Part shown: positions 4,098 through 57,210 of the stretch, in pieces
Position numbering within the stretch: position 1 is the stretch's first letter
Layout: every line of letters begins with the position of its first letter
Virus record (IMG/VR): IMGVR_UViG_3300010413_000020
Coordinates: 1-64,000 of that record
From: a virus
DNA length: 64,000 bases
Direction: 5' to 3' (one strand)
Notes under the pieces: model-generated
The model's input: only the letters and a program-made list of their open reading frames with translations
Database searches by the model: none
What the model was told of the DNA's origin: nothing
Made by a program: the position numbers and the translations under genes

Positions 4098-4690
4098 TAT
4101 TTTATCCAGAGGCGGGGAATACGTAGATGCAATTCGTCTGCAAACGAAAGCATTGTGTCATTATTTGACAAGGTGAATGTAATATCCCTGGGGTTAATTA
4201 AATCTACAGACGTTTCGCTAGGATGATTTTGTACTTCTTTGGTCTCATGAGCAGAACTACCTTCTCGTAGGATTTTAATTAGAATACCCCCAAGTTCTAG
4301 AATTGCGTCTGCTTCATTAGGAAATCGTACATCAGGAACAACGATTCCAACTGCTTCTCTACATTGATGATCGGTATAGCGCTTAAGGGTGTCTGTTTTA
4401 TTGAAGTGCCATCCGTAAACGCGGCCTCTGAGTTTATTTGCCCAAACATCGGGACGATACTTTCGGGCAAAATCAGTACCCAATTCTTGGAGCATTCGTC
4501 GAACTTCTCCTGTTCGCTTTTCGCTGGGTCCCCAGAGAATGGCATCAGGAAGTTCCTCAAAAATATACTGAAGAGAAGCTTTGAGGGGATCTGCCATGGC
4601 AAAAGAGAGATAACCATGTTCTTCAAAAATACTTGCGGCAGTTCCCTTGCCTGAGTTTAGTTTACCTACGAGTCCTACTATTTTAATCAT
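4097..4690 (-). CDS. Deoxynucleoside monophosphate kinase
   Basis: 197 residues from the ATG at 4690, which has GGAGGAAGG upstream. A P-loop G-K-L-N-S-G-K-G-T lies at residues 8-16. It is followed by F-A-M-A-D-P-L-K, a substrate-binding motif, and V-V-P-D-V-R-F-P-N-E-A-D-A-I, the characteristic motif of phage dNMP kinases (T4 gene 1 type). The enzyme converts dNMPs to dNDPs to feed replication, working with the class II ribonucleotide reductase at 38.3-41.0 kb. Longer in-frame readings upstream lack a ribosome binding site and would overlap the previous gene. Confidence 0.85.
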   Translation of the reverse strand: MIKIVGLVGKLNSGKGTAASIFEEHGYLSFAMADPLKASLQYIFEELPDAILWGPSEKRTGEVRRMLQELGTDFARKYRPDVWANKLRGRVYGWHFNKTDTLKRYTDHQCREAVGIVVPDVRFPNEADAILELGGILIKILREGSSAHETKEVQNHPSETSVDLINPRDITFTLSNNDTMLSFADELHLRIPRLWIK

Positions 4691-4976
4691 TGTCACCTTC
4701 CTCCTCATCGATGTCCGCAGTAAGGTCTTCGGAAACATTTTGTTGAACAGCGGCATCAAGAGGAATGAGAAGGAAACGTCGATTATTTTGTTTAGTGGCT
4801 ATTACGGGAATTTTAATACGATCCGTACCTAAGTCAATTGCTAATTTCTCTTCTTGAGAAACTTTGATGTTGTCTACCCAGACACCATCTGTGAGTAGGA
4901 GAGTGCCAGTATTGAGCGTAATATACCCCACAATACTTTCTTTCTTTTCCAAAAAAATAGCTCTTCCGTCTTCCAT
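4683..4976 (-). CDS. Small hypothetical acidic protein
   Basis: 97 residues, predicted mostly beta (G-Y-I-T-L-N-T-G-T-L-L-L-T-D-G-V-W-V), with a strongly acidic C-terminus ending D-E-E-E-G-D-N-D. Start ATG at 4976 has AAAGGAG upstream. The stop overlaps the dNMP kinase start, so it leads that unit. The beta pattern recalls small Sm-like or SH3-like phage proteins, but this is only an impression. Confidence 0.65.
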   Translation of the reverse strand: MEDGRAIFLEKKESIVGYITLNTGTLLLTDGVWVDNIKVSQEEKLAIDLGTDRIKIPVIATKQNNRRFLLIPLDAAVQQNVSEDLTADIDEEEGDND

Positions 4977-5032
4977 GGGTTTCTCCTTTGTTATTAACGT
5001 ACATTAACAAACTTTAATAGACAAGGGAAAGC

Positions 5033-5067
5033 AAAAAAATTCTGTAGGTGTATTTACAGAATTTTTG
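5033..5067 (-). terminator. Bidirectional terminator-like hairpin
   Basis: ATTCTGTA and TACAGAAT form an 8-bp stem (extended by flanking A/T) with a loop of about 8 bases. There are long A runs on the left and T runs on the right, so it could end transcripts in either direction. On the minus strand it follows the transglycosylase gene and the structured RNA region. Confidence 0.65.
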
Positions 5068-5093
5068 TTGGAATGTTCACTACCTTGTTTTAT

Positions 5094-5451
5094 GGGGCTG
5101 CCACCCCAGAGGCTGTCGGTCGAGGGGTATGTTTTGTGCGAAGCACAAGTTTAAGAGCCTAGCGTAGCGCTAGATTTACGTTGTAAATAAATCGTAGTGA
5201 CAATGTTGGCTTGGGGACCGGGATCGGGCCCAGTTTTCCTTCTTCTTGGTCTGAAAGACCAAAGTGAAAGATACTGGCGTAACGCCAGAGTACTTTAGTA
5301 AAGTAATCCCAACAAAGATTGCTATTAGCTGATTTCCGGCGAGCTCTTCCCTCGAGCTCCGCCCGGATGCGTGTCCCTCCGCCCGAAGGGCGAGAGGATA
5401 AGAATCTGTCGTAACGACAGTACTCTCAGTATTTGAAAGATTCCTAATAGC
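5094..5451. ncRNA. Structured RNA candidate, about 360 nt
   Basis: This gene-free stretch of about 480 bases is packed with perfect short hairpins, most with 3-base loops: 5094-5107 (GGGG/CCCC), 5134-5148 (TTGTGC-GAA-GCACAA), 5159-5173 (CTAGCG-TAG-CGCTAG), 5174-5188 (ATTTAC-GTT-GTAAAT), 5246-5262 (7 bp, GAA loop), 5274-5288 (CTGGCG-TAA-CGCCAG), 5291-5305, 5380-5392 (CGCCC-GAA-GGGCG) and 5406-5420 (CTGTCG-TAA-CGACAG). Long-range stems enclose groups of them: TGTTGG 5204-5209 with CCAACA 5309-5314, and GCTATTAG 5321-5328 with CTAATAGC 5444-5451. No coding frame is convincing. The strand is not settled: flanking genes are minus, but the loop types match those of the plus-oriented RNA at 53 kb. 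No known family is recognised. Confidence 0.75.
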
Positions 5452-5456
5452 ATGTT

Positions 5457-6338
5457 TTATATTTTCAATTCTCCAAAAATTGGAATTGATCTTCTCAATA
5501 TTTTTAATCGGTAGTTAGGATGTTTCTGAGAACCCGGCCAATATAAAGAGGGTTGTTTGGTGTTATATATTTTTCCTCTATATGCCATTTCATCAAAAAC
5601 TTTCTGGACTCCTGGAACTACTGTAAGATATGAAGCAACTTCATTCCATTCAGTGTATCCCTTCCCGAGTCGTTTTACTATTTGGCCCACACCTAAATCG
5701 GCTAGCCGTCCGCGGAATGCAGGATGTTCAACTACTTTTTTGATTTCATCTAACGAGTGGCTTATGTGGTTAGGTGGACGTGTTAGTATTTTCTTTTTAT
5801 ACGCAAATTTACGAGGATGAAGCCCTATCGCACATCTATCAAAACGTGATTCTGAAATCATAAGTCCTACAGCTTCACGTATTGGAACACGTACATATTT
5901 ACCGGAACGCAATTTATATTCGGTTTTTTTATGAGCATTATTAATAGCTACAGCCCATTCTAGCGCAGCGTTGTGTATTTCTTCATTAGATTGATAGCGT
6001 TCTCCACACTCCCACCAAATCCCATGTTGGTTTTTCTTTACTAAATTGAAAATACCTTGGGCTAAGGTTATGTCTTTATCTCTATAAAGTGGTGCTTCTT
6101 CTTGTGGAGATTCCTCTGGTTGTTGTGATATTTCTGTTTTTTCCTCCTTTGATTCCAGGGTTGGTCGTTCTATTTCTTCCGGTGGCCCCGCATCTACATT
6201 CGGTATGTCCCCTACCCCCGCATCAATTTGGGGTAGAACTGTCGGGTCACTTGTTACAACCGGTTGTGGGTGTGCACACTTTAATAAAAGGAATAGACCG
6301 CCGAAACACATTAACAGATATTTGACTTTACCTACCAT
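5457..6338 (-). CDS. Lysozyme-like lytic transglycosylase, membrane-anchored
   Basis: 293 residues. The N-terminus is a signal anchor (K-V-K-Y-L-L-M-C-F-G-G-L-F-L-L-L-K-C), perhaps a lipoprotein signal although the residue before the Cys is Lys, not Gly/Ala. A Pro/Glu-rich linker covers residues about 25-85. The C-terminal domain carries G-L-M-I-S-E-S-R-F-D, matching the catalytic Glu-Ser of SLT transglycosylases, and later D-L-G-V-G-Q-I, like the G-x-x-Q-I motif of that fold. It likely cleaves peptidoglycan for lysis or entry. Start ATG at 6338 has AAGGAGG. It is followed on the same strand by the structured RNA region and a terminator. Confidence 0.7.
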   Translation of the reverse strand: MVGKVKYLLMCFGGLFLLLKCAHPQPVVTSDPTVLPQIDAGVGDIPNVDAGPPEEIERPTLESKEEKTEISQQPEESPQEEAPLYRDKDITLAQGIFNLVKKNQHGIWWECGERYQSNEEIHNAALEWAVAINNAHKKTEYKLRSGKYVRVPIREAVGLMISESRFDRCAIGLHPRKFAYKKKILTRPPNHISHSLDEIKKVVEHPAFRGRLADLGVGQIVKRLGKGYTEWNEVASYLTVVPGVQKVFDEMAYRGKIYNTKQPSLYWPGSQKHPNYRLKILRRSIPIFGELKI

Positions 6339-7526: not shown

Positions 7527-7757
7527 CTATAAACCCTTTTTAAGTAAGGGATCATGACAGTCGATATGTACTAATTCATATTCAGGGTAAAGATGAACTC
7601 CCGTTTCTCTTAAATTATCTGGATTAGGTCCTACCATCGCTACAATATTAGCGATACAGACTCGATGACCTGGGCCTAAAGGCCGACGACATTTTCCACA
7701 TGTATTGGTATCAACATGTGGATGTGCGTCTTCTGCTTGGAATTGGTCCCATGCCAT
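7527..7757 (-). CDS. Small zinc-binding protein
   Basis: 76 residues. C-G-K-C-R-R-P-L-G-P-G-H-R-V-C in the first half and H-I-D-C near the C-terminus give a treble-clef or LIM-like ligand set (C-x2-C, H/C, H-x2-C). Start ATG at 7757 has GAGGAG upstream. It may mediate protein or nucleic-acid contacts. Confidence 0.65.
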   Translation of the reverse strand: MAWDQFQAEDAHPHVDTNTCGKCRRPLGPGHRVCIANIVAMVGPNPDNLRETGVHLYPEYELVHIDCHDPLLKKGL

Positions 7758-8140
7758 TATCGAACTCCTCTCAACCAGTCTTCCAACGCTCTTTTGGCAG
7801 CAGTTAAAAGCCAGTGGGTTTTTGTTGTGCGATGAGGAATAACGAATTTTTTTCTTTTCAAAGAAGGTTTGACAATTAAGTTTATTAAAGGGGGACTTTC
7901 CGGGTGGATATAACGTTTAATGAGGAGTTTTTCGATAGTACGATTACACGCGGTATTAACTGTTGTTTGTAAATCCGTTCCTTTAACGATAACGACTGCA
8001 GGCATGTTTTCCTTCATATACGGAAGGGTTAAACCTTTTTTAGGAAAGTCTGGGGAACGGAATTGAAACCAAGATACTGCGGCTACAAAAATATCCTTAT
8101 TGGATTCTTTTGTTACAGCAATTCCGGTTTCGATAAGCAT
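7757..8140 (-). CDS. Hypothetical basic protein
   Basis: 127 residues if the ATG at 8140 is used. A longer reading to 8209 (150 residues) would run through one strand of the long inverted repeat at 8183-8195, and neither start has a clear ribosome binding site. The protein is beta-rich in its first half and strongly basic around S-L-K-R-K-K-F-V. No family is recognised. It overlaps the next gene by one base. Confidence 0.55.
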   Translation of the reverse strand: MLIETGIAVTKESNKDIFVAAVSWFQFRSPDFPKKGLTLPYMKENMPAVVIVKGTDLQTTVNTACNRTIEKLLIKRYIHPESPPLINLIVKPSLKRKKFVIPHRTTKTHWLLTAAKRALEDWLRGVR

Positions 8141-8182
8141 AAAAGTAGTTTTGACGTTAACAATCGTTAATGTCAAGAGAAA

Positions 8183-8321
8183 CCGCTCACACTTACTGTG
8201 AGAGGACATTGTTAGCTGATCAGATGGCCTCCCATGTCAGTGGTAGGGCGTAGCCCTGGCACCACTGCTGTTCAGGTACTGTAGTTGCTACAGAGTCCAG
8301 CGTAGTTCTAAGTGTGAGCGG
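8183..8321. ncRNA. Structured RNA candidate, about 140 nt
   Basis: A perfect 13-bp inverted repeat (CCGCTCACACTTA at 8183-8195, TAAGTGTGAGCGG at 8309-8321) encloses three smaller elements: GACAT...ATGTC; AGTGGT...ACCACT around GGGC-GTA-GCCC; and CTGTAG-TTG-CTACAG. This is a closed multi-branch fold lying between two minus-strand genes. It contains CACTGCTGT at 8263-8271, the same nine bases as the linker of the 53-kb repeat RNA. The strand is not certain. It could be a stand-alone RNA or a leader element of the gene at 7757-8140. Confidence 0.65.
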
Positions 8322-43516: not shown

Positions 43517-44839
43517 TTAATAAGAACGCCTACTTAATCGATGATGTGTGTGAGAAACCCAGTGGAAGTCTTCCCAGTGGTGGTAAACATCTTCCAATGT
43601 TTTTGCTTCTGCGTTAAACCAAGCCGTACCTCTTCCATTACCCAACGAGAAGTTTAGCCGGAGTTCTTCTCGTGCGTAGTAAGTGATTCCTAGAGCGTAG
43701 TATTGAGTACTCCGCCACTTTCCTCGGTGAGTGGGACTGGTCCGATGTCCCGCAAGTTCAATAAGTACCGCTTTCAATTCAGGATTGACAGGAACTCCCT
43801 TATGGGAAGCCTCAATATCTTTTCCGTACTTTTCGATAAAGGTTTTGGCTTCCGCGAAATCAGCAAAGGTTTCTACTCCATTCCAGGGTTTGGTGTGTCG
43901 TACAATTCCGAATTTGAGTTCTTTGCTTTCTACTGCAAAAGTAGTCCAATACTTACAGGAGTTATAACGTTTGTTGAGCTCATAGGCATTGAGTAATAAG
44001 TAGTTCAATTCTGCATCGGTGAATGGAATATGAACTTTATTTAATATCTCAACTACAGCATCCCCCGAACTTATAGGATACGGGCCGGAACACCAACGTC
44101 TTGAATGTTTGTCTCGTTGTCTTAAACAGGTATCTGCTACAAAACATTGAGAGCATACTTCTTTCTCAAACTTGTTAAAACGTTTTCGTTCTTGAATGCC
44201 TTTCTGTATTTGCTGAGACTTGTAATCGATTACTGAAAAGTCATGGTCTTCTGGTAGCCTGAAAGTTTTTCCGAAGTCTTCAGCGAGCGTGAGTCGGGGG
44301 CTAATATAGGTGAATCCTGCAATACGTGAAACACGATTCTTAAGATTCTTGAACGCTTCTCCTATCGTTGCTTCTCCTTCAGTAAGAACTAATTTTTTGA
44401 TAGCACAATCCCTGGGGTTATCTCCTGATTCGAAACAACCCTTACATCCAATAATGGATTTTTGGGGGAGGGTACAACTATAATAGATATCATAAAGATT
44501 GTGTTCCTTGATACCTTCTTTAGGAGAATAAGCTAACACAACTTGTCCTTTCCGCGCTGATTCCAAATCGTGGGCCACACTAGACGCAATTTCACTAGCT
44601 ATTTTCCAACAAAACCCGCCGCTATCTGCGCCAAGCCAGGTATCTCGATAGATTAGGGCTCCTCCTTTCAAAAGATTTTGAAGTTCCGGGTCGTTCATGA
44701 TGAGATGCTGGGTTGCTGGTTCTTCAATTACCGGATCGTTGGAGAGAGAAGTAAATAACATAACGAGAGGGCTGTCTTCATCGACATTGTAGGTATCGGA
44801 AGTTGCGATTGTGAATACCTTATCCGGCGTTTCAGGCAT
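43517..44839 (-). CDS. Cys-rich protein partnered with reverse transcriptase
   Basis: 440 residues from the ATG at 44839 with GGGGAGGAG upstream. Two cysteine clusters: G-C-K-G-C...D-C around residue 135-150 and C-S-Q-C-F-V-A-D-T-C...W-C around 230-250, the second resembling 4Fe-4S or zinc sets of nucleic-acid enzymes. C-terminal region has H-W-E-D-F-H-W-V-S-H-T-H-H near the end. No family is recognised. It overlaps the reverse transcriptase stop by 8 bases, so the two are co-translated and likely work together. Confidence 0.6.
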   Translation of the reverse strand: MPETPDKVFTIATSDTYNVDEDSPLVMLFTSLSNDPVIEEPATQHLIMNDPELQNLLKGGALIYRDTWLGADSGGFCWKIASEIASSVAHDLESARKGQVVLAYSPKEGIKEHNLYDIYYSCTLPQKSIIGCKGCFESGDNPRDCAIKKLVLTEGEATIGEAFKNLKNRVSRIAGFTYISPRLTLAEDFGKTFRLPEDHDFSVIDYKSQQIQKGIQERKRFNKFEKEVCSQCFVADTCLRQRDKHSRRWCSGPYPISSGDAVVEILNKVHIPFTDAELNYLLLNAYELNKRYNSCKYWTTFAVESKELKFGIVRHTKPWNGVETFADFAEAKTFIEKYGKDIEASHKGVPVNPELKAVLIELAGHRTSPTHRGKWRSTQYYALGITYYAREELRLNFSLGNGRGTAWFNAEAKTLEDVYHHWEDFHWVSHTHHRLSRRSY

Positions 44840-46004
44840 GACTCCTCCCCTCATATTGTTCTTTAGCTGCGGTAAACTCCGCTAGTAGTTGTGTTCCTTT
44901 CTGGGGATTTATCTGTCCCATGTAATTTATTTTTCCTCGAAGCCATGTGAGGAGTGCTCCGCCATTTTTCTGTCCCGCTTTAGCTGCTTGTGAATCAAAC
45001 CCGTGGACTAGGCAATTGTGGGTGATCGCTCTTACTTTCCTATATTCCATTGCTGGGATATTCGGCCTTTGGTTGAAAACTGTTCCAAGAAGGAATCTAC
45101 CGTAATAGCCGTGGGCAATCTTAGTTTTACCGGGATTGATACGGTAGCCTGTATTATGTACGATAGATTTGATGTCCTCGATGAACTGAAGAGTTTCGTC
45201 TTTACTGAAAGTACGTCCACACGTGAATGATAGGTCATCACAATAACGGGTATACACCCACTTCTTTGTTCCCTCGAGCTTGTCCTTTTCGTTTCGCTTA
45301 TTCAGGTAAGAAATTATCTTCCCATCGAATAAATCGTTTGCTACGAGATTGCATATTGCACCAGAAGCAGGTGAACCCTGGGGAACTCCGCTCAAGAATT
45401 TAGGTACCCAAGCATCCGGAGATAACTTACTTTTGTGGCGATATTGCGGATTGGGAAAATCTGTAACCGTGAGTAGGTTCGCCAGCAGGCTTGCGACTTC
45501 ATGATTATATCCTATCTTCTTGAAGTAGTTACGTATCATGGCGCGACTGGTGGATGGAAAGAAATCCTTGAGGTCCATGTGCACATATAATCCCTTACGC
45601 GGACAGTCATGCGCTTTTGGGGTTTTGGTTCCGGCATCTTCGCAAATTTTACAAGGAGGAATGTGCTGAAGGACGGCGTGTCTACAGGAAAGACCCTTTC
45701 GATAGGCCGTTACGTGAGCCCCTAATTGGTCTTGTAAAGGAACCAAATATCGGATGTGAAGTTGATGGAGCAATAATTTCATCATGTCATTTGGAGAATG
45801 TAAAATGCGATGTCCTTTCTTCTTTTTAGGTATCTTGAAGATTTCGTACATATCCTTCTTGTTCTCCAACATGTACCACATTACCTTATTGCGAAATCCC
45901 AGACTGAAAGCCAACGAACAATCGTCAAACGCATAGGGCACTTCATCCGGAAGATCAGGAAGCTCAATTACAGCAATTTGTGTTTTATTAAATCCCACAC
46001 TCAT
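44832..46004 (-). CDS. Retron-like reverse transcriptase
   Basis: 390 residues, AGGAGGTGAGG upstream of the ATG. RT motifs: G-L-S-C-R-H-A-V-L-Q-H (retron-type region X), M-D-L-K-D-F-F-P-S (motif A, D144/D147), G-V-P-Q-G-S-P-A-S (motif B), Y-C-D-D at 234-237 (motif C), P-G-K-T-K-I (motif D), L-L-G-T-V-F-N-Q-R-P (motif E). A CxxC...C insertion (C118, C121, C134) sits before motif A. QGSP and the region X pattern place it with retron/group II-type RTs, not with diversity-generating retroelements. No retron msr-msd is evident upstream, where another gene abuts directly. Probably active. Confidence 0.85.
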   Translation of the reverse strand: MSVGFNKTQIAVIELPDLPDEVPYAFDDCSLAFSLGFRNKVMWYMLENKKDMYEIFKIPKKKKGHRILHSPNDMMKLLLHQLHIRYLVPLQDQLGAHVTAYRKGLSCRHAVLQHIPPCKICEDAGTKTPKAHDCPRKGLYVHMDLKDFFPSTSRAMIRNYFKKIGYNHEVASLLANLLTVTDFPNPQYRHKSKLSPDAWVPKFLSGVPQGSPASGAICNLVANDLFDGKIISYLNKRNEKDKLEGTKKWVYTRYCDDLSFTCGRTFSKDETLQFIEDIKSIVHNTGYRINPGKTKIAHGYYGRFLLGTVFNQRPNIPAMEYRKVRAITHNCLVHGFDSQAAKAGQKNGGALLTWLRGKINYMGQINPQKGTQLLAEFTAAKEQYEGRSHA

Positions 46005-46670: not shown

Positions 46671-48341
46671 TTAATCTTTGATCTTTAAAACCCTTGGTTG
46701 CATGTATTCGTTTTCAGTTCCAGTAGATGTGAGTACCCAGATAAGCGGGCATGGAGGTAAATATTCAGGAATGGGTCCGTGTGGCGGGCCAACCGGAGCT
46801 TCCCCGTCCGTTAAGAGAATCGCTAAATCTGGGGGGTCCGTCATAGGATTTTCTTCTCGGTCAGCGTTGGGCATCCAGTCCCCTTCTTCGTCTCTTCCAC
46901 ACATGTATTTGAGGGGTGGCGTAAAGCTTGTGCCACCATAGCCGTAACGATTGATTAATTGATATCTGTCTCTGGCGAATTTTTCAGTATCATCGGGACC
47001 CAGAAGTTTCTCATACTGAATGGCATGGTCGAACATGATGAGACGTATTGTTACTTCGTCTTCCTGGTTCATAATGCCTCGAATTTCGGCCATGAAATCC
47101 AGAAATTCGGATTGACTGACACTGCCGGATGTATCGACCATACACGCGATGTTGAATGCAAAGTTCTTTTGGAATCCGGGATAGGGTTCCATACCTTCGT
47201 CTTCCAGATGGAAGAAACAGGGATTGGGATACGCGGTGCTTTCATCCAATTTGGAAGAAACTTCTGATCGCATCATGTTTTGTAGAACAATCTGCCAGGG
47301 AATTGTAGGCTCCTCGAGTAAATCTTGGATAGCTTCCATGAATTTTCCTGGAACTTTTCCACAACTTTTCTTGGTTTGTTCTACTGCGTTTTTGGTTATC
47401 CTTTTGGCTTCTCTCTTTGCACTATCAATTGCTCGTTCAATCTCGGCGCTGGTCATCTCATCAAAATCTAAATTCCAGGGGACGTTTTGAGGGTTCTGGC
47501 CGCGTACTAGATCTTTAAACCACTCTGGGTAATTATCGTCCAGGCCGTCTGCGGGGGATAATTCTTCTGAATTAGCTCCACCACCTCCTTTGTTGTTATC
47601 CCCTTCTTTGTCACCCTGACCAGATCGATTATTATCCTCTGTATTCTGGGTGGAAGATTTTGAAGAACCATCAGGGGAATCTCCTCTTCCACCTTTGGAA
47701 TTTCCCGATTGGCGGGAGGACCCACCTTGTTGATTGGATTGATTGGCATTACACCCTCCTATCATTGGTATGATTTGTAGATTTGGATTAAATCCGTCTT
47801 TTTGCATATTTTTCATTAATTCATTAAAATAGAACTCGAAGGATTGCCCTGTTGGATAGTTGTATTTCGCTTCTTCCGGCCAAATAAATCTATCTCGATA
47901 CTTCGCAAAATTGGTACGTGGAGTTTCCAGGATAGGACGAACAGCAATGTCGTTTGCTGCCATATCCGCTGCTACATTCATTATGGGTTGTAAACGGGCA
48001 TAACGAATATTATCGTTGAGTTTCAGACGGATGCGCAACATTTTTTCCAGGTGTTGAAGAGCCAAATGCGCGGCTTCATGAACCACTACGAGTAATTGAA
48101 ACGGTCCTTCTTGTTGTACAAACCAGACAGGATGCCAAACCAACATGTACCTGCCGTGATTATCGAGAGTTACTGCTGCCGTAGGTGGCCAAAGGTCTTT
48201 ACGGGGGGCGCGACCACAACCATTAATCATGCGGGCATAGAAGTTACTGCCTCCTCGGGGACTACAGAGCCACTGTAGAGCTCGAGACATTGCTCGGTCT
48301 ATCTCTTCTTCAGAAAACTCTTGTTGTTTTATCTCTTCCAT
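46671..48341 (-). CDS. Metallopeptidase-VWA protein (DUF2201-like)
   Basis: 556 residues. N-terminal half carries V-V-H-E-A-A-H (HExxH at 88-92), the putative metallopeptidase motif of this family. An acidic/Asn/Ser/Gly-rich linker covers residues about 200-260. C-terminal VWA domain has D-T-S-G-S (MIDAS) and later L-T-D-G. Such proteins pair with MoxR-type AAA ATPases; one is encoded 2 kb away. The pair may remodel protein complexes during infection or head/tail maturation. Confidence 0.8.
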   Translation of the reverse strand: MEEIKQQEFSEEEIDRAMSRALQWLCSPRGGSNFYARMINGCGRAPRKDLWPPTAAVTLDNHGRYMLVWHPVWFVQQEGPFQLLVVVHEAAHLALQHLEKMLRIRLKLNDNIRYARLQPIMNVAADMAANDIAVRPILETPRTNFAKYRDRFIWPEEAKYNYPTGQSFEFYFNELMKNMQKDGFNPNLQIIPMIGGCNANQSNQQGGSSRQSGNSKGGRGDSPDGSSKSSTQNTEDNNRSGQGDKEGDNNKGGGGANSEELSPADGLDDNYPEWFKDLVRGQNPQNVPWNLDFDEMTSAEIERAIDSAKREAKRITKNAVEQTKKSCGKVPGKFMEAIQDLLEEPTIPWQIVLQNMMRSEVSSKLDESTAYPNPCFFHLEDEGMEPYPGFQKNFAFNIACMVDTSGSVSQSEFLDFMAEIRGIMNQEDEVTIRLIMFDHAIQYEKLLGPDDTEKFARDRYQLINRYGYGGTSFTPPLKYMCGRDEEGDWMPNADREENPMTDPPDLAILLTDGEAPVGPPHGPIPEYLPPCPLIWVLTSTGTENEYMQPRVLKIKD

Positions 48342-48358
48342 TTATCTTCTCCTCTGTC

Positions 48359-48364
48359 TATAAT
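48359..48364 (+). promoter_or_regulatory. Candidate promoter in divergent region
   Basis: TATAAT at 48359-48364, between the divergent VWA gene and the plus-strand gene starting at 48416. The -35 region is weak. The mirrored strand also contains AATTATAGA, so polarity is uncertain. Confidence 0.3.
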
Positions 48365-48415
48365 TCAATAGGCGTGAGACGAACGCCATAGATACAGGAA
48401 CGTTGAGGTGTTTAT

Positions 48416-49429
48416 ATGACCCAGGTAATTGACCAGACAAATGACCCAGGTTTTTCTACTTTGAGGGTGATCGTGGACCGTTTTCCTCGATTGAGAGAAA
48501 TGGCTAAAACTGCTAACCTCGATCCCTCTGAATTTTCAAATTTACCCGACGAAGCATTTGCATGGCCGGGACAGCGGCGGTTTCCTATACATAATGCGGA
48601 GCATACCGCACTGTCTATGGGTTACAGTAAAGTTGCTCAGAAATTACCATCGGATGTGGCAGAAACGATGGAGAAAGCCGCGTCTCTGCATGGGGTGGAT
48701 ACTGAGGCATTCGAGGAACCGGTTGCAATCGAAAAAGTAGCATCCGACGATGGGCATTATCTCATCCCTGACAAGCGTAGATTTAAGATAGCATCTAAGG
48801 AAGATGTGCCTGTTGCGGAACGGATAATTCATGAAAAATACTCATCCCTCTCGGTCGGAGATAGAACTATTGCTTGTATGCAATTAGTTAAGGTCGCGGA
48901 GGAATACGGGGAGGAGTTACATCCTTCTACCATTAAACTCGCGGGTTTAACAATTACGAGTACTCGTACTATGCGAGATTGGATAGAGGCACGTAAAGAA
49001 GCTTCTCTAAGACTTGGATCTGCGATGGCTCAAGCATTTGAAACGTTAGCTAATCAATTTCAGGATGTAGAACCTTTTATTCATAATCGTGGCGACCAAA
49101 TGAAACTGGCTAGTGCTTTACAGCGCATGGACGAGGCTGCGGGGTTAACTCAATTTTATGGCCGTAAGTTGTTAGACCCTATAGAAACAGTCTTTAACAC
49201 TCCTCATCGTTCCGATAATTTTGTTAAAGTGGGTTCCGCACTTCAGAATAAGGCACTCTTAGCTTCTCTCCCTCTCTCGTTTTGGGAAGACGCGTTAGGA
49301 CCAGAAATTGCTGCCGAGATAGCCCCTAACGGTCAGGTGGATATAACTATGTTGGAGCAGATTCTTCCCACGCTGCCCGCCGATTTAAAATCGGCCTTGG
49401 AAACCCAACTCGCTGCGTATAATCGGTAG
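48416..49429 (+). CDS. Hypothetical protein upstream of terminase
   Basis: 337 residues, helical and acidic/Ala-rich, with W-P-G-Q-R-R-F-P-I-H-N-A-E-H-T near residue 50. Recurrent K-V-A and K-L-A segments resemble processed virion-scaffold or internal head proteins. No family is recognised. Confidence 0.6.
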   Translation: MTQVIDQTNDPGFSTLRVIVDRFPRLREMAKTANLDPSEFSNLPDEAFAWPGQRRFPIHNAEHTALSMGYSKVAQKLPSDVAETMEKAASLHGVDTEAFEEPVAIEKVASDDGHYLIPDKRRFKIASKEDVPVAERIIHEKYSSLSVGDRTIACMQLVKVAEEYGEELHPSTIKLAGLTITSTRTMRDWIEARKEASLRLGSAMAQAFETLANQFQDVEPFIHNRGDQMKLASALQRMDEAAGLTQFYGRKLLDPIETVFNTPHRSDNFVKVGSALQNKALLASLPLSFWEDALGPEIAAEIAPNGQVDITMLEQILPTLPADLKSALETQLAAYNR

Positions 49430-49432
49430 TTT

Positions 49433-50197
49433 ATGGAACAACTTCTGGAAAAATTTGCGGAGCATGTTTCCCATCTTACAAATTACACTGTAAAGACCGC
49501 CCAGAGAGCAGACATAGCACGAAAGTACTTACGCGAAGGGGATGAACGCTCGGCTGCGGCTTTGTTGATGGCCCTGCGTACTCTTCATGGAATTGAGTCA
49601 TTCTATTGGGAACCTGAGACTATTTGGTTGACCCTCGAACGGGATGATCATTTAGACATGGAAGAATTGGGACGTAATAAATTACAAGCGGCTATTACCC
49701 TTATTGTTAATCCTGCATTTTTTTGGGACAATCTCGTATTCCAACGAACGGTTCAGGCACTTAATGGAGAACCCTTTGACCCAGAAGCACTTCAGGAATG
49801 CCATCCAGGATATATGTCTTGGGCAGTTTACGAATCAGGATTGATTCGAGGATTAGACCCTGAGGAACCTGTATCTGCTGAACTGGATGAAGATGTTCAA
49901 CAATACGTAGCAGTCTGTTTGAAGCGTGCAGGTTATGTATATCCTCCTAATCAATTAATCGCTGTTGCTGACAATTTAGAAAAGATTCTTCCTAGAGAGA
50001 CCAAGCCATTTATCGACCAAGTAAAAAAATCATGGGAGCACCTGGACAAGGGAGCCCTCTCGGAACGTACATTCCAAGAGGACCCCCTCGATGTCCAGTT
50101 AGCGCAACTTGCTTCCTGTTACGAATATGTGCGAGAACGCGCCAATGAAATGGCGAGTGAGATTCTTTCGTTAGACCGAGAACTCCTCAACTCCTGA
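49433..50197 (+). CDS. Hypothetical protein upstream of terminase
   Basis: 254 residues, mostly helical and acidic, with A-A-A-L-L-M-A-L-R-T-L-H near residue 45. It follows the previous gene by 3 bases, and the two are likely co-expressed. Its stop overlaps the convergent MoxR gene by 11 bases. Confidence 0.6.
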   Translation: MEQLLEKFAEHVSHLTNYTVKTAQRADIARKYLREGDERSAAALLMALRTLHGIESFYWEPETIWLTLERDDHLDMEELGRNKLQAAITLIVNPAFFWDNLVFQRTVQALNGEPFDPEALQECHPGYMSWAVYESGLIRGLDPEEPVSAELDEDVQQYVAVCLKRAGYVYPPNQLIAVADNLEKILPRETKPFIDQVKKSWEHLDKGALSERTFQEDPLDVQLAQLASCYEYVRERANEMASEILSLDRELLNS

Positions 50198-51407
50198 TTT
50201 TTTCTTCCATTCCGCGATAGTTGTTGTCTATTTCTAACTGAAGATTACACCAACTATCATAGTCTTGGAGTTCTCGCATCAGCGAATTGAGATATTCTTC
50301 CGATTTATTTTCCTCGGCAATAGACCGCATTTGAAAGAGCATTGCTCCGGCCATCTCCAGTGGGTGCAATTCTATGAACTTAAGAAAGTTCTTGGCGGTG
50401 TCTTCTACGTCTGGAGTTGTCGCAAACATCAAACGCAAAACGTTTTGGTCCAAATCAGCCAGGGGTTCATGCATGGCATTATCGACCATTTTCTGTATGG
50501 CGTTTTTGACTTTACTGAATCTACGTAAAACGTCATCCGCACCAATTGTTAAAGAAGAATCTTTAAGATGTGCGGATAATTCCGAGGCCATGGTTACCCC
50601 TATGGATGCGGCGAATCGTTGCATAGCAAATTCGCTATTTAACGGAATACCCTTTGCTTCCATGTTGTAGGAATCTTCGCTGATGGTTTCGATGTTAGCA
50701 GGACAGTTATATTGTTTCTGTTCTTTCAGAGCCTTCCAGTCGTATATGTTGTTTGGTTTAGCTCTAAAGTAATCCAGAATACCAGGATGACAGGCTTTAT
50801 CTTTTGCTGCGCCTTGTCCGAAGAGATGGAATCGTTCAGTAGCAGCGTGTTTCATGAATCCTTTTAAATCCGGCAATACATAAAAGAATTTAACGCGACG
50901 GCGTATCGCCGCTTCATTTTCAATCGAAGTTACATTATATTCCGCGGTTGAGGGATTCATCGTTCCTGCAACAAGACATTGTTTGGGCACCACATAGTTA
51001 AACATGCGCCCGTCTTCCATCATGGTAAAGAATTGATTAATGGCATGTTTGAGCCCGCGGTTGAGCTCATCAAAGAGAATGATTTTCTTTTCATCTCCTT
51101 TAGGAAAGATTTCAGGAACGGCAACTTTGAAAAAGTCTTCAAGGGTACGCACTGGTATGCCGGAACCCATTAGGCCCCAGTGAGCAGTATGAATAGGAAC
51201 GACGGTGTATCCTGTGTCATGCGCTATCTGTGACCAAATCTGTGTTTTGCCTATTCCCGAATCCCCTACCAGGACAATACAGCCCCGTCGTTGGTGAAAT
51301 TCTAAGGACAAGCGAATTTGAGCCGCAGCTTCCGCAAGTGTGACCTGGGGAATGTCGCGCAATTCAGCATACTTAGGAACAACTTTTTCTTCTTCTTTAC
51401 TTGCCAT
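50187..51407 (-). CDS. MoxR-type AAA+ ATPase
   Basis: 406 residues, AAGGAG upstream. Walker A G-D-S-G-I-G-K-T-Q near residue 50, Walker B I-I-L-F-D-E-L-N-R-G near 112, sensor region A-G-T-M-N-P-S, and an arginine-finger region A-A-I-R-R-R-V. This is the MoxR/dynein-like AAA family, partner of VWA proteins such as the one at 46.7-48.3 kb. Likely a chaperone-like ATPase that remodels or assembles phage complexes. Confidence 0.85.
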   Translation of the reverse strand: MASKEEEKVVPKYAELRDIPQVTLAEAAAQIRLSLEFHQRRGCIVLVGDSGIGKTQIWSQIAHDTGYTVVPIHTAHWGLMGSGIPVRTLEDFFKVAVPEIFPKGDEKKIILFDELNRGLKHAINQFFTMMEDGRMFNYVVPKQCLVAGTMNPSTAEYNVTSIENEAAIRRRVKFFYVLPDLKGFMKHAATERFHLFGQGAAKDKACHPGILDYFRAKPNNIYDWKALKEQKQYNCPANIETISEDSYNMEAKGIPLNSEFAMQRFAASIGVTMASELSAHLKDSSLTIGADDVLRRFSKVKNAIQKMVDNAMHEPLADLDQNVLRLMFATTPDVEDTAKNFLKFIELHPLEMAGAMLFQMRSIAEENKSEEYLNSLMRELQDYDSWCNLQLEIDNNYRGMEEKIRS

Positions 51408-51433: not shown

Positions 51434-53053
51434 ATGATGAAAGGCAATTTACAGCACTTTCGAATGAGTAGTGTCGCACAGGCATGGCTGCGCCTGGACG
51501 GACAACCCTTTCGATTAGATGATTGGCCGATGCACAAAGAGTTCTACGATGGGAGATTCCGCCGTAGTCTTTTTAAAACAAGTCGTCAGGTGGGTAAGAG
51601 CGTCACCATGTGCAACTTCAGTATCATTGAGTGCTCTCTTATACCGCACTTTTCTACAATGTTTGTGGCTCCCACTAAAGAGCATACCGTTAGATTTTCG
51701 AACACACGTTTAGGAAAGATTCTTCGCTACTCACCGGTTATTAACAAAACTTTTTTACGTACTGAGCTCGCTGATCGTGTGTTTCATAAACAATATACTA
51801 ACGGCTCTGAGATGCTGTTGACCTATGGGTCCGATAGTGAGGAGCGGGTTCGTGGACCTTCAACTGACAGAAACATGTACGATGAGGTCCAGGACATGCT
51901 TTATGACCCGGTTATTACTGTTGGTAATGAAACAATGTCCAATTCTCCTCATGCTTTTGAGACTTATGCGGGCACTCCTAAGACTATGGAGAATACCATT
52001 CAGTATCTCTGGGAGATTTCGACGCAGACAGAATGGGTGATGAAATGTGATGCCTGTGGGTCATACCAATTTATAGATAACGAAAAACACTTGGGGAAAT
52101 TAGGGCCGGTCTGTTTGAAATGCAAGTCTTACTTGAATCCTTTCCATGGCACCTGGATTGATATGAATCCTATAGATTACGGTGCAGGGGAAGACGAAGA
52201 CACAAAATTAAAAGGTTTCCACATATCTCAACCCATGATGCCTTTCAATGTTCCAAAGTCGATGGAAGGGCGTGGAGATATGGAAGAAGTCGCTCTCCGG
52301 CGATGGAAACGTATTATTAATAAGTTCGAGGGTACACCTATCTCTGTATTCCGCAACGAGGTTCTCGGCGTTTCCGACGCTATTGGTACCCGCGTTCTTT
52401 CTAAACAAGAGCTCCAGGCTCTTTGTACTCCCCGTGAAATGCAAGATTTCCCTAATGATAAAACACTTGAAGGAATCAGTCTTACCGTAGGTGGTGTGGA
52501 TTGGTCTGGTGGGGGTACTACAGGCGTTTCTCGTACTGTAATATGGATATGGGGTTTTAGACCTACAGACCGAAAACTAGTCTGTCTTCTCTATAAAGTG
52601 CTTGCGGGAATCAATCCAGTGAATGTCATAGACGAAATTGCAAAAATATTTGATGCATATCGTGTACAACTTGTTATTGGAGATGCGGGTGAAGGCCATA
52701 CGGCTAACAATCTTTTGCGAAGCAAAATTGGAATTCACCGAGTACAGCAAGTACAATATGGTGCCCAAAAAAAGGCTATTAACTGGAATGGAGAAGACCG
52801 TTGGATGGCCGACCGTACAACTCTTATCGACAACTATTTCATGGGTTTGAAACGGCAAGAATTTGAATTTGCTACTCGCTCTGAGATGGAAGTTGCCATC
52901 ACCGATATTCTTAACGAGTATGAGGAAATAACTACAGCAGGTCGTCGTGTTTGGCGTCATTCTCCTCAACGTCCAGATGATTGTCTTCATGCAGGACTTT
53001 TTGGTTGGCTTGCCTTTAAAATGGTTATGGGGGATATGAGAATGTATCAGTAA
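51434..53053 (+). CDS. terL: Large terminase subunit (DNA packaging ATPase-nuclease)
   Basis: 539 residues from the ATG at 51434; a TTG-started reading to 51401 is less likely, and no ribosome binding site is obvious for either. Walker A region S-R-Q-V-G-K-S-V, Walker B M-Y-D-E-V-Q-D-M, nuclease motif G-V-D-W-S-G-G-G and later V-I-G-D-A-G-E-G, then a C-terminal D-D-C-L-H-A metal site. C-D-A-C...C-L-K-C around residue 200-225 form a zinc ribbon within the ATPase-nuclease linker. It pumps and cuts phage DNA. Directly followed by the multi-arm RNA. Confidence 0.9.
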   Translation: MMKGNLQHFRMSSVAQAWLRLDGQPFRLDDWPMHKEFYDGRFRRSLFKTSRQVGKSVTMCNFSIIECSLIPHFSTMFVAPTKEHTVRFSNTRLGKILRYSPVINKTFLRTELADRVFHKQYTNGSEMLLTYGSDSEERVRGPSTDRNMYDEVQDMLYDPVITVGNETMSNSPHAFETYAGTPKTMENTIQYLWEISTQTEWVMKCDACGSYQFIDNEKHLGKLGPVCLKCKSYLNPFHGTWIDMNPIDYGAGEDEDTKLKGFHISQPMMPFNVPKSMEGRGDMEEVALRRWKRIINKFEGTPISVFRNEVLGVSDAIGTRVLSKQELQALCTPREMQDFPNDKTLEGISLTVGGVDWSGGGTTGVSRTVIWIWGFRPTDRKLVCLLYKVLAGINPVNVIDEIAKIFDAYRVQLVIGDAGEGHTANNLLRSKIGIHRVQQVQYGAQKKAINWNGEDRWMADRTTLIDNYFMGLKRQEFEFATRSEMEVAITDILNEYEEITTAGRRVWRHSPQRPDDCLHAGLFGWLAFKMVMGDMRMYQ

Positions 53054-53115
53054 CTTTTGTCGCTGTCCGCTTATTTTCCAATGATTGCAGTGGAAAAGAA
53101 GTGTTGTCAGAGTCT

Positions 53116-53142
53116 TTTTGCGAATAATGCCTATTCGCAAAA
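53116..53142 (+). other. 11-bp perfect hairpin at the start of the RNA region
   Basis: TTTTGCGAATA (53116-53126) and TATTCGCAAAA (53132-53142) form a perfect stem with a 5-base loop. It could be a terminator after terminase (only four A/T follow, so weak) or a processing stem of the RNA. Confidence 0.6.
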
Positions 53143-53169
53143 TAGCGCCCTAGCTTGATTGCAAAGAAC

Positions 53170-53184
53170 GGAGCGTAACGCTCC
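53170..53184 (+). other. Bracketing hairpin, left
   Basis: GGAGCG-TAA-CGCTCC. A nearly identical hairpin, GGAGCG-TAT-CGCTCC, occurs at the right end of the array (54128-54142). Confidence 0.75.
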
Positions 53185-53286
53185 AGCGTCTCTAACAGAG
53201 AGAAGCTCCGACAAAAGTCGCTGACCTTCTGGAGAGGGCCCTTTCAGGTCCTCCTGAAGACGGGACCTCGGCAAGAGGACAAACCC

Positions 53287-54039
53287 GGTACTGCTGTCAT
53301 TAGATGGGGCTTTTATCCCCGGCCCGAGTGGCGTGGGCTTCCACGGGGCAGGCGGGCTCGGGGGTAAAAGAACCAGTAATGGCACTGCTGTCTTAACGTC
53401 CTGTTTAGGGTGCTCCTGATAGCCTGCGACTTGAAGAGGCGCGGCTCTCAGGGGCGTCCCTGAACAGGTGGTTCAGGCACTGCTGTCTTAACGGGCCGGA
53501 ACTGGTCAGAACCGTGGGGTGAGCCGTGAGGCGAAACCCCGGTGAGGACCTAGTCCGGCTGTTCAGGCACTGCTGTCTTTAGAATCTAGTGGCCTGCCAA
53601 AGGAAAAGCGAAGCGATCCTTAGGCAGAGCAGACTAGAGACTAAGGCACTGCTGTCTTATTTTCTCAACGCGAAGCCGCCCGGCTGCAGCACACTACTGT
53701 GCGGAAGCCTGGTGCGGCTGAACGGGGAGAAAATAGGCACTGCTGTCTTATGGGGTCCACACCGCGCACTCCTCGGGGCTGCGGTGTGACGCCTAGGCAC
53801 TGCTGTCCTATGCATTTGCCGCGGGCACTGCATGACATTTCCCGTCCAATTGAATGAAATGCCTGCGAGTGCCTCGCGTCGAATGATTGGGCACTGCTGT
53901 CTTGCATACGTTCCCCGTGCGAGGTGTAATGGTAGCCGAAGGGGCCATTATCACCTGCGGGGGAACATATACAGGCACCGTTGACTTTGCTCGGGCCCAT
54001 GTGCCCAACGGCAGTGGGCTCCGTGCAAGGCACTGCTGT
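53287..54039 (+). repeat. Nine-copy GGCACTGCTGTCTTA linker repeat
   Basis: Copies start at 53287 (GGTACTGCTGTCATTA), 53381, 53476, 53566, 53645, 53736, 53796, 53890 and 54029 (ending GTGATC). Spacings are 94, 95, 90, 79, 91, 60, 94 and 139 bases. The core CACTGCTGT is invariant in copies 2-9 and has one change in copy 1 (TACTGCTGT). The intervals share no sequence but share the closing-stem design. Confidence 0.95.
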
Positions 54040-54127
54040 GATCTAGGAGACGAAAGCCACCACCCCGTGGTGAACAAAGTGAACCACTCAGGTGGTGGCG
54101 CGTTTCCTAATCGCGACAATCAGTAAT

Positions 54128-54142
54128 GGAGCGTATCGCTCC
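54128..54142 (+). other. Bracketing hairpin, right
   Basis: GGAGCG-TAT-CGCTCC, mirror of the left bracket with one loop base different. A further hairpin TCTGT...ACAGA follows near 54158-54175. Confidence 0.7.
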
Positions 54143-54207
54143 GACTCCGACAGCGCTCTGTTTTATAATACAGATGGAGTTCCAGTACCAAAAGCTTATA
54201 CCGATAG

Positions 54208-57200
54208 TTAATCGATGTTTGTAAAATCGTAACGAATTTCTTCTTCAATAAAGTCGTAATCTTCTTGATTGAATTCTACAACGGGATGTTCTGACAGGTA
54301 ATGGTCAACAGATTGCAGTTCTCCATAAGAAGGGCCTACTTCTACATCCCAGGCAAAGGGTACAGGAAGCCATGGATATTGCTTAGCCACTCTGCGAACA
54401 CCGTATTCTTTGAAGAAGTCCGGCATTTGTCCAATGTATTTTTTAGGCAGTTCGAAAACGATAGAATCATGTACAGTAATGAGCAGATGTCCTCCCATAT
54501 CGCGAATAGGACCATCTACATCACAGAGAACACCCATCACAATATCTGAACTTGTACTTTGTATTTTGAAGTTAACCGCTTGACGTTCTGCTTTGGCAAC
54601 CATATAGCGAGTCATTCCCTGTAGATCAAGACGTCGTCGGCGTCCGATAAACGTTTCAACTAACCCAAAGTTGTGTACCTGATCTTTTGTAAGTTGAATA
54701 TACTTCGGGATTGTGGGAAACATTCTAAAGAGAACATCGATAATTGCTTGTGCTTGGTCATTGGGAATTCCAACAATAACTGAGATTTTATTTTTACTGG
54801 CTCCATAAAGAATTCCAAAAACCACTCGTTTTACATTCTTACGAAGCTTATCGAGTTGTTTTCCATACCAAGGATCATCCTTCTCTATTTGTTCTCTATT
54901 TTGAAAGTCTTCGTAGGTCCAAGCGTGAACATCATCGATGCCTATTGTATCTAGAACTTTTTGTTTATCGCTTTCGCGTACTCCCTGTAAGACGCTCTTA
55001 GGATTATAAACCATAGAGGAAAAGAAACTATGTGGGTCCATTCCATCATTTAAAGCTCGAATGAGGTTGGGGTCTTTACTGTACGCAGCGTAAACGCGCA
55101 CTTCTGCGGCTTTGGCATCAGCGTTAACAATTAATTGAGTTTCGGGATTAGTGGGAATGAATATCTTTTTGATATTATGTGAACCGATTCGTTTAGGGAT
55201 ATTTTGCATATTTTCATCAGAGGATGATAGCCTTCCCGTTGCGGTTCCTGCTATATGAAAAGATGTGTGCATCTTTCCATCTTCTCGACTCAATGCTCTG
55301 ATGTTTTCTACGAATGTGTTTCGTGCTTTGCTTACTCCTCGGTATTTAAGGAGAGCTTTGGCAAAGGGACAATCTTGTTGTGTTACAAGTCCTCTTAAAA
55401 ATTTAGCGTCAGTTGAAATCTTGCCTGTAGGCGTGTAACTTAATTCTTCTTCAGTCAAATGATTATAAGATATTATCTCGTTAGTTTCGGGATGATAGAA
55501 TCCCGCACCGAATAGAACTTTTCGAAGATGGGCAGTGCTATTAGGATTGAATTGCTCATCGAAGAGATTTGGTGGGATCATTTTAAAGAGATCGATTTTA
55601 AGCATTATAATTGATTCATCCATATCGACGACTAAGTCTTCGATATATTTTTGGTCAACTGCCATACCGTAGAGTTCCATGTCTGCTAATATCTTAGAAG
55701 AAGGAATTAATCGCTCGAACATCAAATCTTTCAATGGGTCTTTGGAAGAACATTCAGGAGTAGCGATATTACGAAAATAAGGACTCTTACTTATCTCTCG
55801 ACGTTGTTTTGCTAAGTGTTTATTCTCTTCTTCAATTCGAGCTCTTTGAATTGTGATAAGTTGTCGAGTAACATCGGCATCTACCGCGCCATATTCATTT
55901 AAGTCCTTTAAGGGAATATTAATAAAACCTTCGTCTTGCGCCAGTTTTTTAGCAGCGCCTTTTTCTTGAGCTGCTTCTTTCAATGCGTCTTTGGTTTCTA
56001 AACTATCCAAAATAGTTTTGAGTTGGTCTTCGTAACCTGAGTATTTTGGAATCATTAATTTAGTTAGGGCTTTCAGGCTATAATAACCACGTTTATCCTC
56101 AGAAATTAAGTGCTCTCCCAACATCGTATCCCATGCAAATCTACGGACTTCCCAACCTTTACGTTGTAATACTTTGAGGTCGAACTTAGCGTTGTGAAAT
56201 CCTTTGGGTTTAGGACATTGGAGTAACTGTGTAATATAAGGATGGACATCTGCCAGACTCCAAGGGGTTTCGGGGTGTTCAATAGGGATAGACGCAGCTT
56301 TGCCTGGTGCCCAAGAAACTACAAGACTTAAGATTTTAAGTTTTTCACGATGAGGATATAGCGTATTGGTTTCAGTATCAATTGCGATGACGTGGTTATC
56401 TGGGTTCTTTCCTGGAGGAGCGTATTCGACAACCATTTCTACGAGTTTACGCACGTCATCCAATTTCTTTGGAAAGATATAATCTTTAATCAATTCACTT
56501 AAGGGCACTTCGGTATTAATAGTTTTTCCATGCTGTTGTTCGTAGACAGCATCCATAAACATTTCTACGTGCTGTTGGAAGATTTTGTAGTATCCGGTTT
56601 TGACCAATAATGCACGTTTAGAAAACGTGGGAAATATAATTACAGGGCGATTACCTAATTTAGTCTCCAGGAATTTGCCTTGGACCGAAGCGTATTTTCC
56701 GATCTTAAGACCGAAAGACTGCACGACTGATGGCCCAAGGGCAAATACCATTATAGGTTGATCGTTATGTTTAGCGTGCTTGAATATTTCATCACGGAAT
56801 TGAAGATAACAACATGAACGCATTCTTTTATTGGGTTTATCCACACTACATCTGACAGACGAAGTGTACCGACCAATAAGATTAGCTGTGCGTTTGTGTG
56901 TGTCTTTATATTTTACGAAAGTATCCAGAATAACTTTTTCAACATCGTATCTCCAAGTAGTGTGATTTTTTACATCAGCTGACGGCCCTGGAAGATAAGG
57001 CGATTCGGTAATGCAGAAATAATCGGCTCCAGTAGGGCCAATGCCCTCTGCATAATGTTCTTTGCGGTAAGCGGGACATTCCGAACACTTAGAACCTTTC
57101 CATGCATTAGGGCCACATAAATTACACTGTAAAAATTCAGTAGAGGTTTCGTTACCATTCGTGGTCACTTGCGTCTTTGGCCTGTTCGGTGGGTTTATCT

Positions 57201-57210
57201 TCGTCGGCAT
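54208..57210 (-). CDS. DNA polymerase A fused to a UDG-like N-terminal domain
   Basis: 1000 residues. N-terminal 230 residues: C29/C32 and C42/C45 pairs, then P-T-G-A-D-Y-F-C-I-T-E-S-P and F-A-L-G-P-S-V-V, resembling a uracil-DNA-glycosylase fold with its cysteine cluster. Next a 3'-5' exonuclease domain with A-I-D-T-E-T-N (ExoI) and F-H-N-A-K-F-D (ExoII). Polymerase domain: N-A-D-A-K-A-A-E-V-R (motif A), F-G-I-L-Y-G (motif B), T-V-H-D-S (motif C). Similar UDG-PolA fusions are, as I recall, known in SPO1-like phages. Replicative polymerase. It starts inside the end of the primase-helicase gene. Confidence 0.85.
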   Translation of the reverse strand: MPTKINPPNRPKTQVTTNGNETSTEFLQCNLCGPNAWKGSKCSECPAYRKEHYAEGIGPTGADYFCITESPYLPGPSADVKNHTTWRYDVEKVILDTFVKYKDTHKRTANLIGRYTSSVRCSVDKPNKRMRSCCYLQFRDEIFKHAKHNDQPIMVFALGPSVVQSFGLKIGKYASVQGKFLETKLGNRPVIIFPTFSKRALLVKTGYYKIFQQHVEMFMDAVYEQQHGKTINTEVPLSELIKDYIFPKKLDDVRKLVEMVVEYAPPGKNPDNHVIAIDTETNTLYPHREKLKILSLVVSWAPGKAASIPIEHPETPWSLADVHPYITQLLQCPKPKGFHNAKFDLKVLQRKGWEVRRFAWDTMLGEHLISEDKRGYYSLKALTKLMIPKYSGYEDQLKTILDSLETKDALKEAAQEKGAAKKLAQDEGFINIPLKDLNEYGAVDADVTRQLITIQRARIEEENKHLAKQRREISKSPYFRNIATPECSSKDPLKDLMFERLIPSSKILADMELYGMAVDQKYIEDLVVDMDESIIMLKIDLFKMIPPNLFDEQFNPNSTAHLRKVLFGAGFYHPETNEIISYNHLTEEELSYTPTGKISTDAKFLRGLVTQQDCPFAKALLKYRGVSKARNTFVENIRALSREDGKMHTSFHIAGTATGRLSSSDENMQNIPKRIGSHNIKKIFIPTNPETQLIVNADAKAAEVRVYAAYSKDPNLIRALNDGMDPHSFFSSMVYNPKSVLQGVRESDKQKVLDTIGIDDVHAWTYEDFQNREQIEKDDPWYGKQLDKLRKNVKRVVFGILYGASKNKISVIVGIPNDQAQAIIDVLFRMFPTIPKYIQLTKDQVHNFGLVETFIGRRRRLDLQGMTRYMVAKAERQAVNFKIQSTSSDIVMGVLCDVDGPIRDMGGHLLITVHDSIVFELPKKYIGQMPDFFKEYGVRRVAKQYPWLPVPFAWDVEVGPSYGELQSVDHYLSEHPVVEFNQEDYDFIEEEIRYDFTNID

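Follow-up and report, generated by a model that had tools for sequence, protein, structure and literature searches.

The window, a 64,000-nt stretch of viral DNA (positions 1 to 64,000 of IMG/VR record IMGVR_UViG_3300010413_000020), includes two convergent genes: (i) terL, encoding a GpA-like ATPase (51434-53053, plus strand; Pfam PF05876, 2.5e-15), and (ii) polA, encoding DNA polymerase A (54208-57210, minus strand; Pfam PF00476, 2.2e-73). The intergenic region between them (53053-54189) carries one structured domain twice, as D1 (53053-53218) and D2 (53287-54189), each closed by a covarying helix (P1) and given here without a strand. The element has a GC content of 0.53-0.58 compared to about 0.43, yields no long open reading frame in an ORF scan, and folds with an energy that beats dinucleotide shuffles on the plus (z = -16) and minus (z = -11) strands. 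Genes for a vWA-like DUF2201 protein and an AAA ATPase adjoin terL (46671-51407), and a protein with PHROG matches to two families, one of polymerases and one of reverse transcriptases, is encoded on the minus strand at 44835-46004.

D1 is a descriptor match with a 9-bp P1, in which 53053-53061 (ACTTTTGTC) pairs with 53210-53218 (GACAAAAGT). The GCT at 53062 is followed by two arms, hairpin A (53170-53184), hairpin B (53185-53207), CC and the second strand of the closing helix (P1'). A hairpin region (53219-53286, from the MFE fold) separates D1 from D2. The P1 of D2 pairs GGTACT (53287-53292) with AGTACC (54184-54189) and encloses about ten arms joined by linkers, hairpin A (54127-54143, TGGAGCGTATCGCTCCG, with a UAU triloop) and hairpin B (54143-54183, ACTCC...GGAGT), after which TCC follows.

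The linkers of D2 (GGYACTGCTGTCTTA, GGYACTGCT; no strand assigned) are located at 53287, 53381, 53476, 53566, 53645, 53736, 53796, 53890, 53974 (degenerate) and 54029 (the range ending at 54042). Each approximates a copy of the P1 strand plus GCT/GCU, with hairpin arms between the linkers. When up to two mismatches are allowed, GGCACTGCTGTC occurs 11 times in the window, nine of these in 53287-54040; 2.53 occurrences are expected and no shuffle reaches 11. The linkers are spaced 60-95 nt apart (139 nt across the degenerate copy), and each interval forms a long imperfect hairpin with a closing stem supplied by the motif flanks TGTCTTA/TAAGGCA. Thus, the sequence-only reading of this DNA, which had described nine motif copies at spacings of 60-139 nt and hairpins closed by the motif flanks, is upheld in both respects, while the element turns out to be larger and to comprise two domains; a further part of that reading, that G-U pairs fix the plus strand, does not stand (see below). 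The spacing of the linkers, together with intervals that are hairpins and not unstructured spacers, rules out a CRISPR array, and a tRNA or tmRNA is ruled out by ARAGORN, which predicts 0 genes in the window; the exclusion of a tRNA and that of a CRISPR array agree with what had been read from the sequence.

The arms of this element are replaced, or are gained and lost as linker-plus-arm cassettes. In the relatives L165 and L166, the terL genes are identical at 1585 of 1587 bases, and L166 has exactly one extra linker-plus-arm cassette of 129 nt with the linker GGTACTGCTGTG at either end, which is the product expected of recombination between linkers. When the window is compared to L089, the D1 core (P1, GCT, A, B and CC) is nearly identical and the arms are replaced. 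The linker copies could persist through recombination instead of selection.

A second locus of the window carries an array of three domains (5074-5452, no strand assigned): Da (5074-5202, with a variant junction), Db (5204-5314) and Dc (5320-5452). All three fold accordingly and match the model R1 with E values of 2.6e-8 to 1.8e-9, being themselves members of that model. Membership in the family is assigned by the descriptor for D1, D2 and Dc and by inspection for Db, which has a 5-bp P1. The array directly follows the stop codon of a lytic-transglycosylase-like lipoprotein gene (5457-6338, minus strand; named from a motif only, with no Pfam match) and is adjoined by a terminator-like hairpin with a T-run (5033-5065, minus strand) that is not flagged by the consensus scan; similar terminators abut the arrays of the relatives G004 and G016. 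Beyond the array lies a 97-aa gene (4683-4976, minus strand), which is syntenic in G004, G009 and G016 and has a homologue in G010. The transglycosylase-like gene has homologues in G004, G009 and G016, and the array between the two genes is conserved, with three domains in G004, four in G009 and one in G016. Tandem domains are spaced 9-20 nt apart. Single copies are found in G010 and G017, each no more than about 1 kb from a tRNA gene; the window phage (G000) has no tRNA gene in the rest of its genome either, and tmRNA genes are predicted in L364 and L367.

Two sequence features are noted in the same part of the window. An inverted repeat lies between the 97-aa gene and the array (window 5000-5020, G004 132511-132526 and G009 64822-64837), with the form CGTTAA-N6-TTAACG in G004 and G009 and ATTAA-N6-TTAAT in G000, while the form TTAACA-A-TTTAA occurs once per genome in all three; the repeat is a possible operator or promoter. 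A possible degenerate domain at 8205-8312 includes GCTGATCAG, the hairpin CTGTAGTTGCTACAG and TCC, without a matching P1 (R1 E = 0.19); it is positioned between a 53-aa zinc-ribbon-like ORF and a gene at 7757-8209 and, in the orientation used, is antisense to both.

The second locus bears on one of the roles proposed from the sequence alone, that of a packaging RNA beside the terminase. Every terL-polA copy does adjoin terL, but the second syntenic locus is without a terminase, other copies reside near tRNA genes, and the phi29 pRNA is not matched in the Rfam scan. The element is also missing at terL-polA in several close TerL relatives, in which polA is 3-17 nt from terL, and is thus dispensable there. 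As the link to the terminase is incidental, a packaging function is highly improbable. A role as a sponge or a scaffold, likewise suggested from the sequence, may still apply.

Many TerL relatives carry a homologous folded sequence, with one to several arms, in the terL-polA intergenic region. The 37 domains collected from about 17 related contigs, mostly metagenomic contig fragments, share the layout P1-GCU-[arms]-hairpin A (G-UNN-C triloop)-hairpin B-UCC-P1', in which the number of arms ranges from 1 to 10 and the smallest members are about 110 nt (the L316 domain, 114 nt). Of 43 A-type hairpins in the terL-polA regions, 29 are accompanied by a P1 of this kind, whereas no other tri- or dinucleotide scores above 8. 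The descriptor, derived from the terL-polA set yet able to detect the tandem copies elsewhere, was counted as compact matches (span limited to 300) in 1.07 Mb of phage DNA: GCT gives 23 matches, against a mean of 1.4 and a maximum of 4 for the other 63 trinucleotides, and CC likewise gives 23, against at most 4 for its alternatives. The letter preceding CC did not enter the selection and is U in 33 of the 37 domains, and the triloop is UAA in 20 of 37. All positions of P1 except the invariant inner G-C vary on both sides. Pairing is retained in 96.5% of P1 and A cells (60.1% when shuffled) with a covariation of 0.978 (0.222 when shuffled), counts that are partly circular since P1 and A were picked by complementarity; independent support comes from the descriptor enrichment and the unselected letters. 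Whole-domain MAFFT alignment is too poor for building a covariance model, and R1, which was made from the arrays, recovers the domains it was built from plus a single weak candidate (8232), but no terL-polA domains. Thus, R1 does not by itself join the arrays to the terL-polA domains, and it is the descriptor that connects the two sets.

Several of these phages carry the unit at two or more sites, its junction letters are conserved, and the homologues with covarying stems, on which the sequence-only reading had staked its claim, are found, with P1 and A covarying across domains. These homologues and the lack of an Rfam match support that reading's view of the element as an undescribed, large, multi-arm structured nucleic acid, and the best explanation is a modular structured RNA family encoded by one clade of tailed phages. 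A conserved junction with variable helices, in tandem units 9-20 nt apart, would also be expected of a self-cleaving or self-processing RNA with the tandem domains as released units; however, Rfam has no ribozyme family match and the core has few invariant letters, and such activity is rather improbable.

Because conservation is limited to the pairing and about a dozen letters, a structured RNA family such as this can escape sequence search. A blastn search against phages returns chance-level matches only. A B-hairpin pattern scan gives 44 stretches, with the element in L089 and L100, five others that on reading in full are coding, and a remainder that is mostly isolate-genome prophage records. 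A motif-pair scan of viral contigs gives 81 stretches that are judged to be chance, those with at least three copies being spaced like repeats of coding DNA. The closest isolates by TerL are Salmonella phage Arash (28.6%) and Vibrio phage D181 (28.9%), neither of which has a convincing domain in its first 50 kb, and a scan with the transglycosylase adds no genomes to the three already known. A TerL scan of genome contigs has one match, a contig in an Archaeoglobales MAG with the sequence of L342. L316 (QMZE01000001), a phage relative with a TerL identity of 63%, is binned in an Archaeoglobales MAG. The archaeal binning of a relative may represent a binning error or an unexpected host; the sigma-factor gene of the window phage suggests that its own host is bacterial. 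PolA matches span about 1.8-1.9 kb instead of 1.5 kb in L341, L342, L343, L345, L348 and L351, a length that suggests inteins or other inserts in the polA of several relatives.

The strand of the element is not fixed by its G-U pairs, as had been claimed in favour of the plus strand. In folds restricted to Watson-Crick pairs, G-U outnumbers A-C on the plus strand by 33:16, and by 29:14 when the other strand is folded, and nine of the ten D2 arms fold better on plus. The local DNA is, however, keto-skewed (keto content of the plus strand: 0.55 at the third codon positions of the terL and polA genes, 0.518 in the element), and the composition-controlled z-scores (means of -5.8 and -6.0) have no strand preference. 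Folding energy, keto skew and helix-end mismatches were each tried as strand calls and none is decisive; mismatch counts around Watson-Crick helices are noise. Gene context instead favours the minus strand. The second-locus arrays follow the stop codon of the transglycosylase-like gene on the strand of that gene, and those of G000, G004 and G016 are abutted by intrinsic terminators. In G017, the copy is located directly before GGAGAACAACTATG (GGAG...ATG), which belongs to the next gene, and shares its strand with a tRNA-Lys; the G010 copy shares its strand with a tRNA-Leu. In addition, GGTATAA on the minus strand (TTATACC on plus; 54197-54203) looks like the promoter -10 element of a minus-strand RNA, and GGTA[TA]AA or a near variant is positioned 4-6 nt outside P1 in nine relatives. 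The transcribed strand is thus quite probably the one that encodes polA, the transglycosylase-like gene and the tRNAs (minus here), and an element on this strand would be the 3' UTR of polA.

Since the G-U evidence leaves the strand unfixed, a DNA-level feature, in which folded ssDNA serves as a replication, packaging or recombination site, is also to be weighed. C-GAA-G hairpins are very stable in DNA too, and the linkers resemble recombination points. By contrast, dispersed copies that have the same polarity relative to neighbouring genes and reside near terminators or tRNAs better suit transcripts. The element is likely to be an RNA, as judged from this context, and the ssDNA feature is doubtful.

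How such an RNA might act can be tentatively proposed. The combination of a conserved junction and free helices points to a binding site, the presence of copies at unlinked sites to dosage, and the cassettes to arms whose identity matters little; these hints lead to the guess of a dosage-type binding RNA that works in trans. One partner would bind at the conserved junction and triloop, and this partner would most likely be an RNA-binding protein or a nuclease of the host or the phage, while extra domains and arms would raise valency or protect the transcript, a proposal that would explain why arm sequence is free and pairing is kept. Taken as a whole, a modular RNA family, probably of the minus strand, that binds a partner in trans in a dosage-dependent manner is the tentatively preferred reading. 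The action in trans is guessed from copy number, and the positions are accounted for equally well by a cis role in 3' UTRs. Thus, a close rival, itself possible and given slightly less weight, is a cis-acting 3'-UTR or intergenic element that stabilises the upstream mRNA at its 3' end, marks where processing occurs or insulates converging transcription. Such an element would account for the location between convergent genes at terL-polA, for arrays located directly behind a stop codon and followed by an intrinsic terminator, and for a conserved fold with variable arms, which suits a bulk structural role. Its size is, however, far beyond that need, the conserved junction letters and triloops imply recognition, the close relatives with no element between terL and polA do without it, and the G017 copy precedes a gene.

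A more speculative reading is that the element represents a new class of viral RNA that evolves as a cassette array, in which a conserved junction core is retained and changeable hairpin arms are swapped at repeated linkers. As each linker is a copy of the closing strand, it would provide alternative closure points and allow quick arm variation, which might be a means of evading or titrating a host defence that senses or degrades RNA. The natural deletion and insertion variants, together with a clear core to mutate, render the function directly testable.

Phages have few large structured RNAs, most of them of unknown function. The element is unusual among them in being modular, with a minimal unit of about 110 nt, several sites per genome and an arm cassette that differs between near-identical phages. 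It is undescribed in the papers searched in the open-access literature. As had been supposed from the sequence, it is not GOLLD, ROOL, OLE or HEARO: none of these is matched in the window at the Rfam gathering threshold or in six relatives at E<=2, and Rfam matches in the element region at E<=5 are weak, unrelated and without meaning for the assignment. GOLLD and ROOL form nanocages and, like the element, are large, structured and phage-encoded, with GOLLD ornate and of unknown function and both often found near tRNAs or tRNA islands (PMC12286853). Size, many arms, phage encoding and the position of some copies near tRNAs could thus, by analogy, point to an RNA-only scaffold or multimeric cage. 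Such a cage is unlikely, as Rfam similarity is lacking and members as small as about 110 nt, with 1 to 10 arms, are hard to square with a fixed symmetric assembly. GOLLD is one conserved fold of at least 800 nt and ROOL is one large RNA, whereas the element is a small repeated domain with variable arms and without the fixed layout of one large RNA.

The rnaC and rnaD (species 1 and 2) of phage T4 are likewise small stable phage RNAs (119-139 nt) in a tRNA cluster. To our knowledge, their function is unknown. By inspection of sequence and MFE fold, they have no evident P1-GCU...UCC-P1' layout or hairpin A, and rnaC has a tRNA-like 3' part. The cabRNA of staphylococcal phages is similar to the element as a structured phage RNA associated with terminase genes, but lies inside the terS/terL coding sequence, differs in sequence and has no reported conserved core (PMC10686824). 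The adenovirus VA RNA, a structured viral decoy RNA (PMC6599070), is a functional analogy only. Compared to these systems, the element is a new RNA family whose kind is known and whose cassette architecture is unusual.
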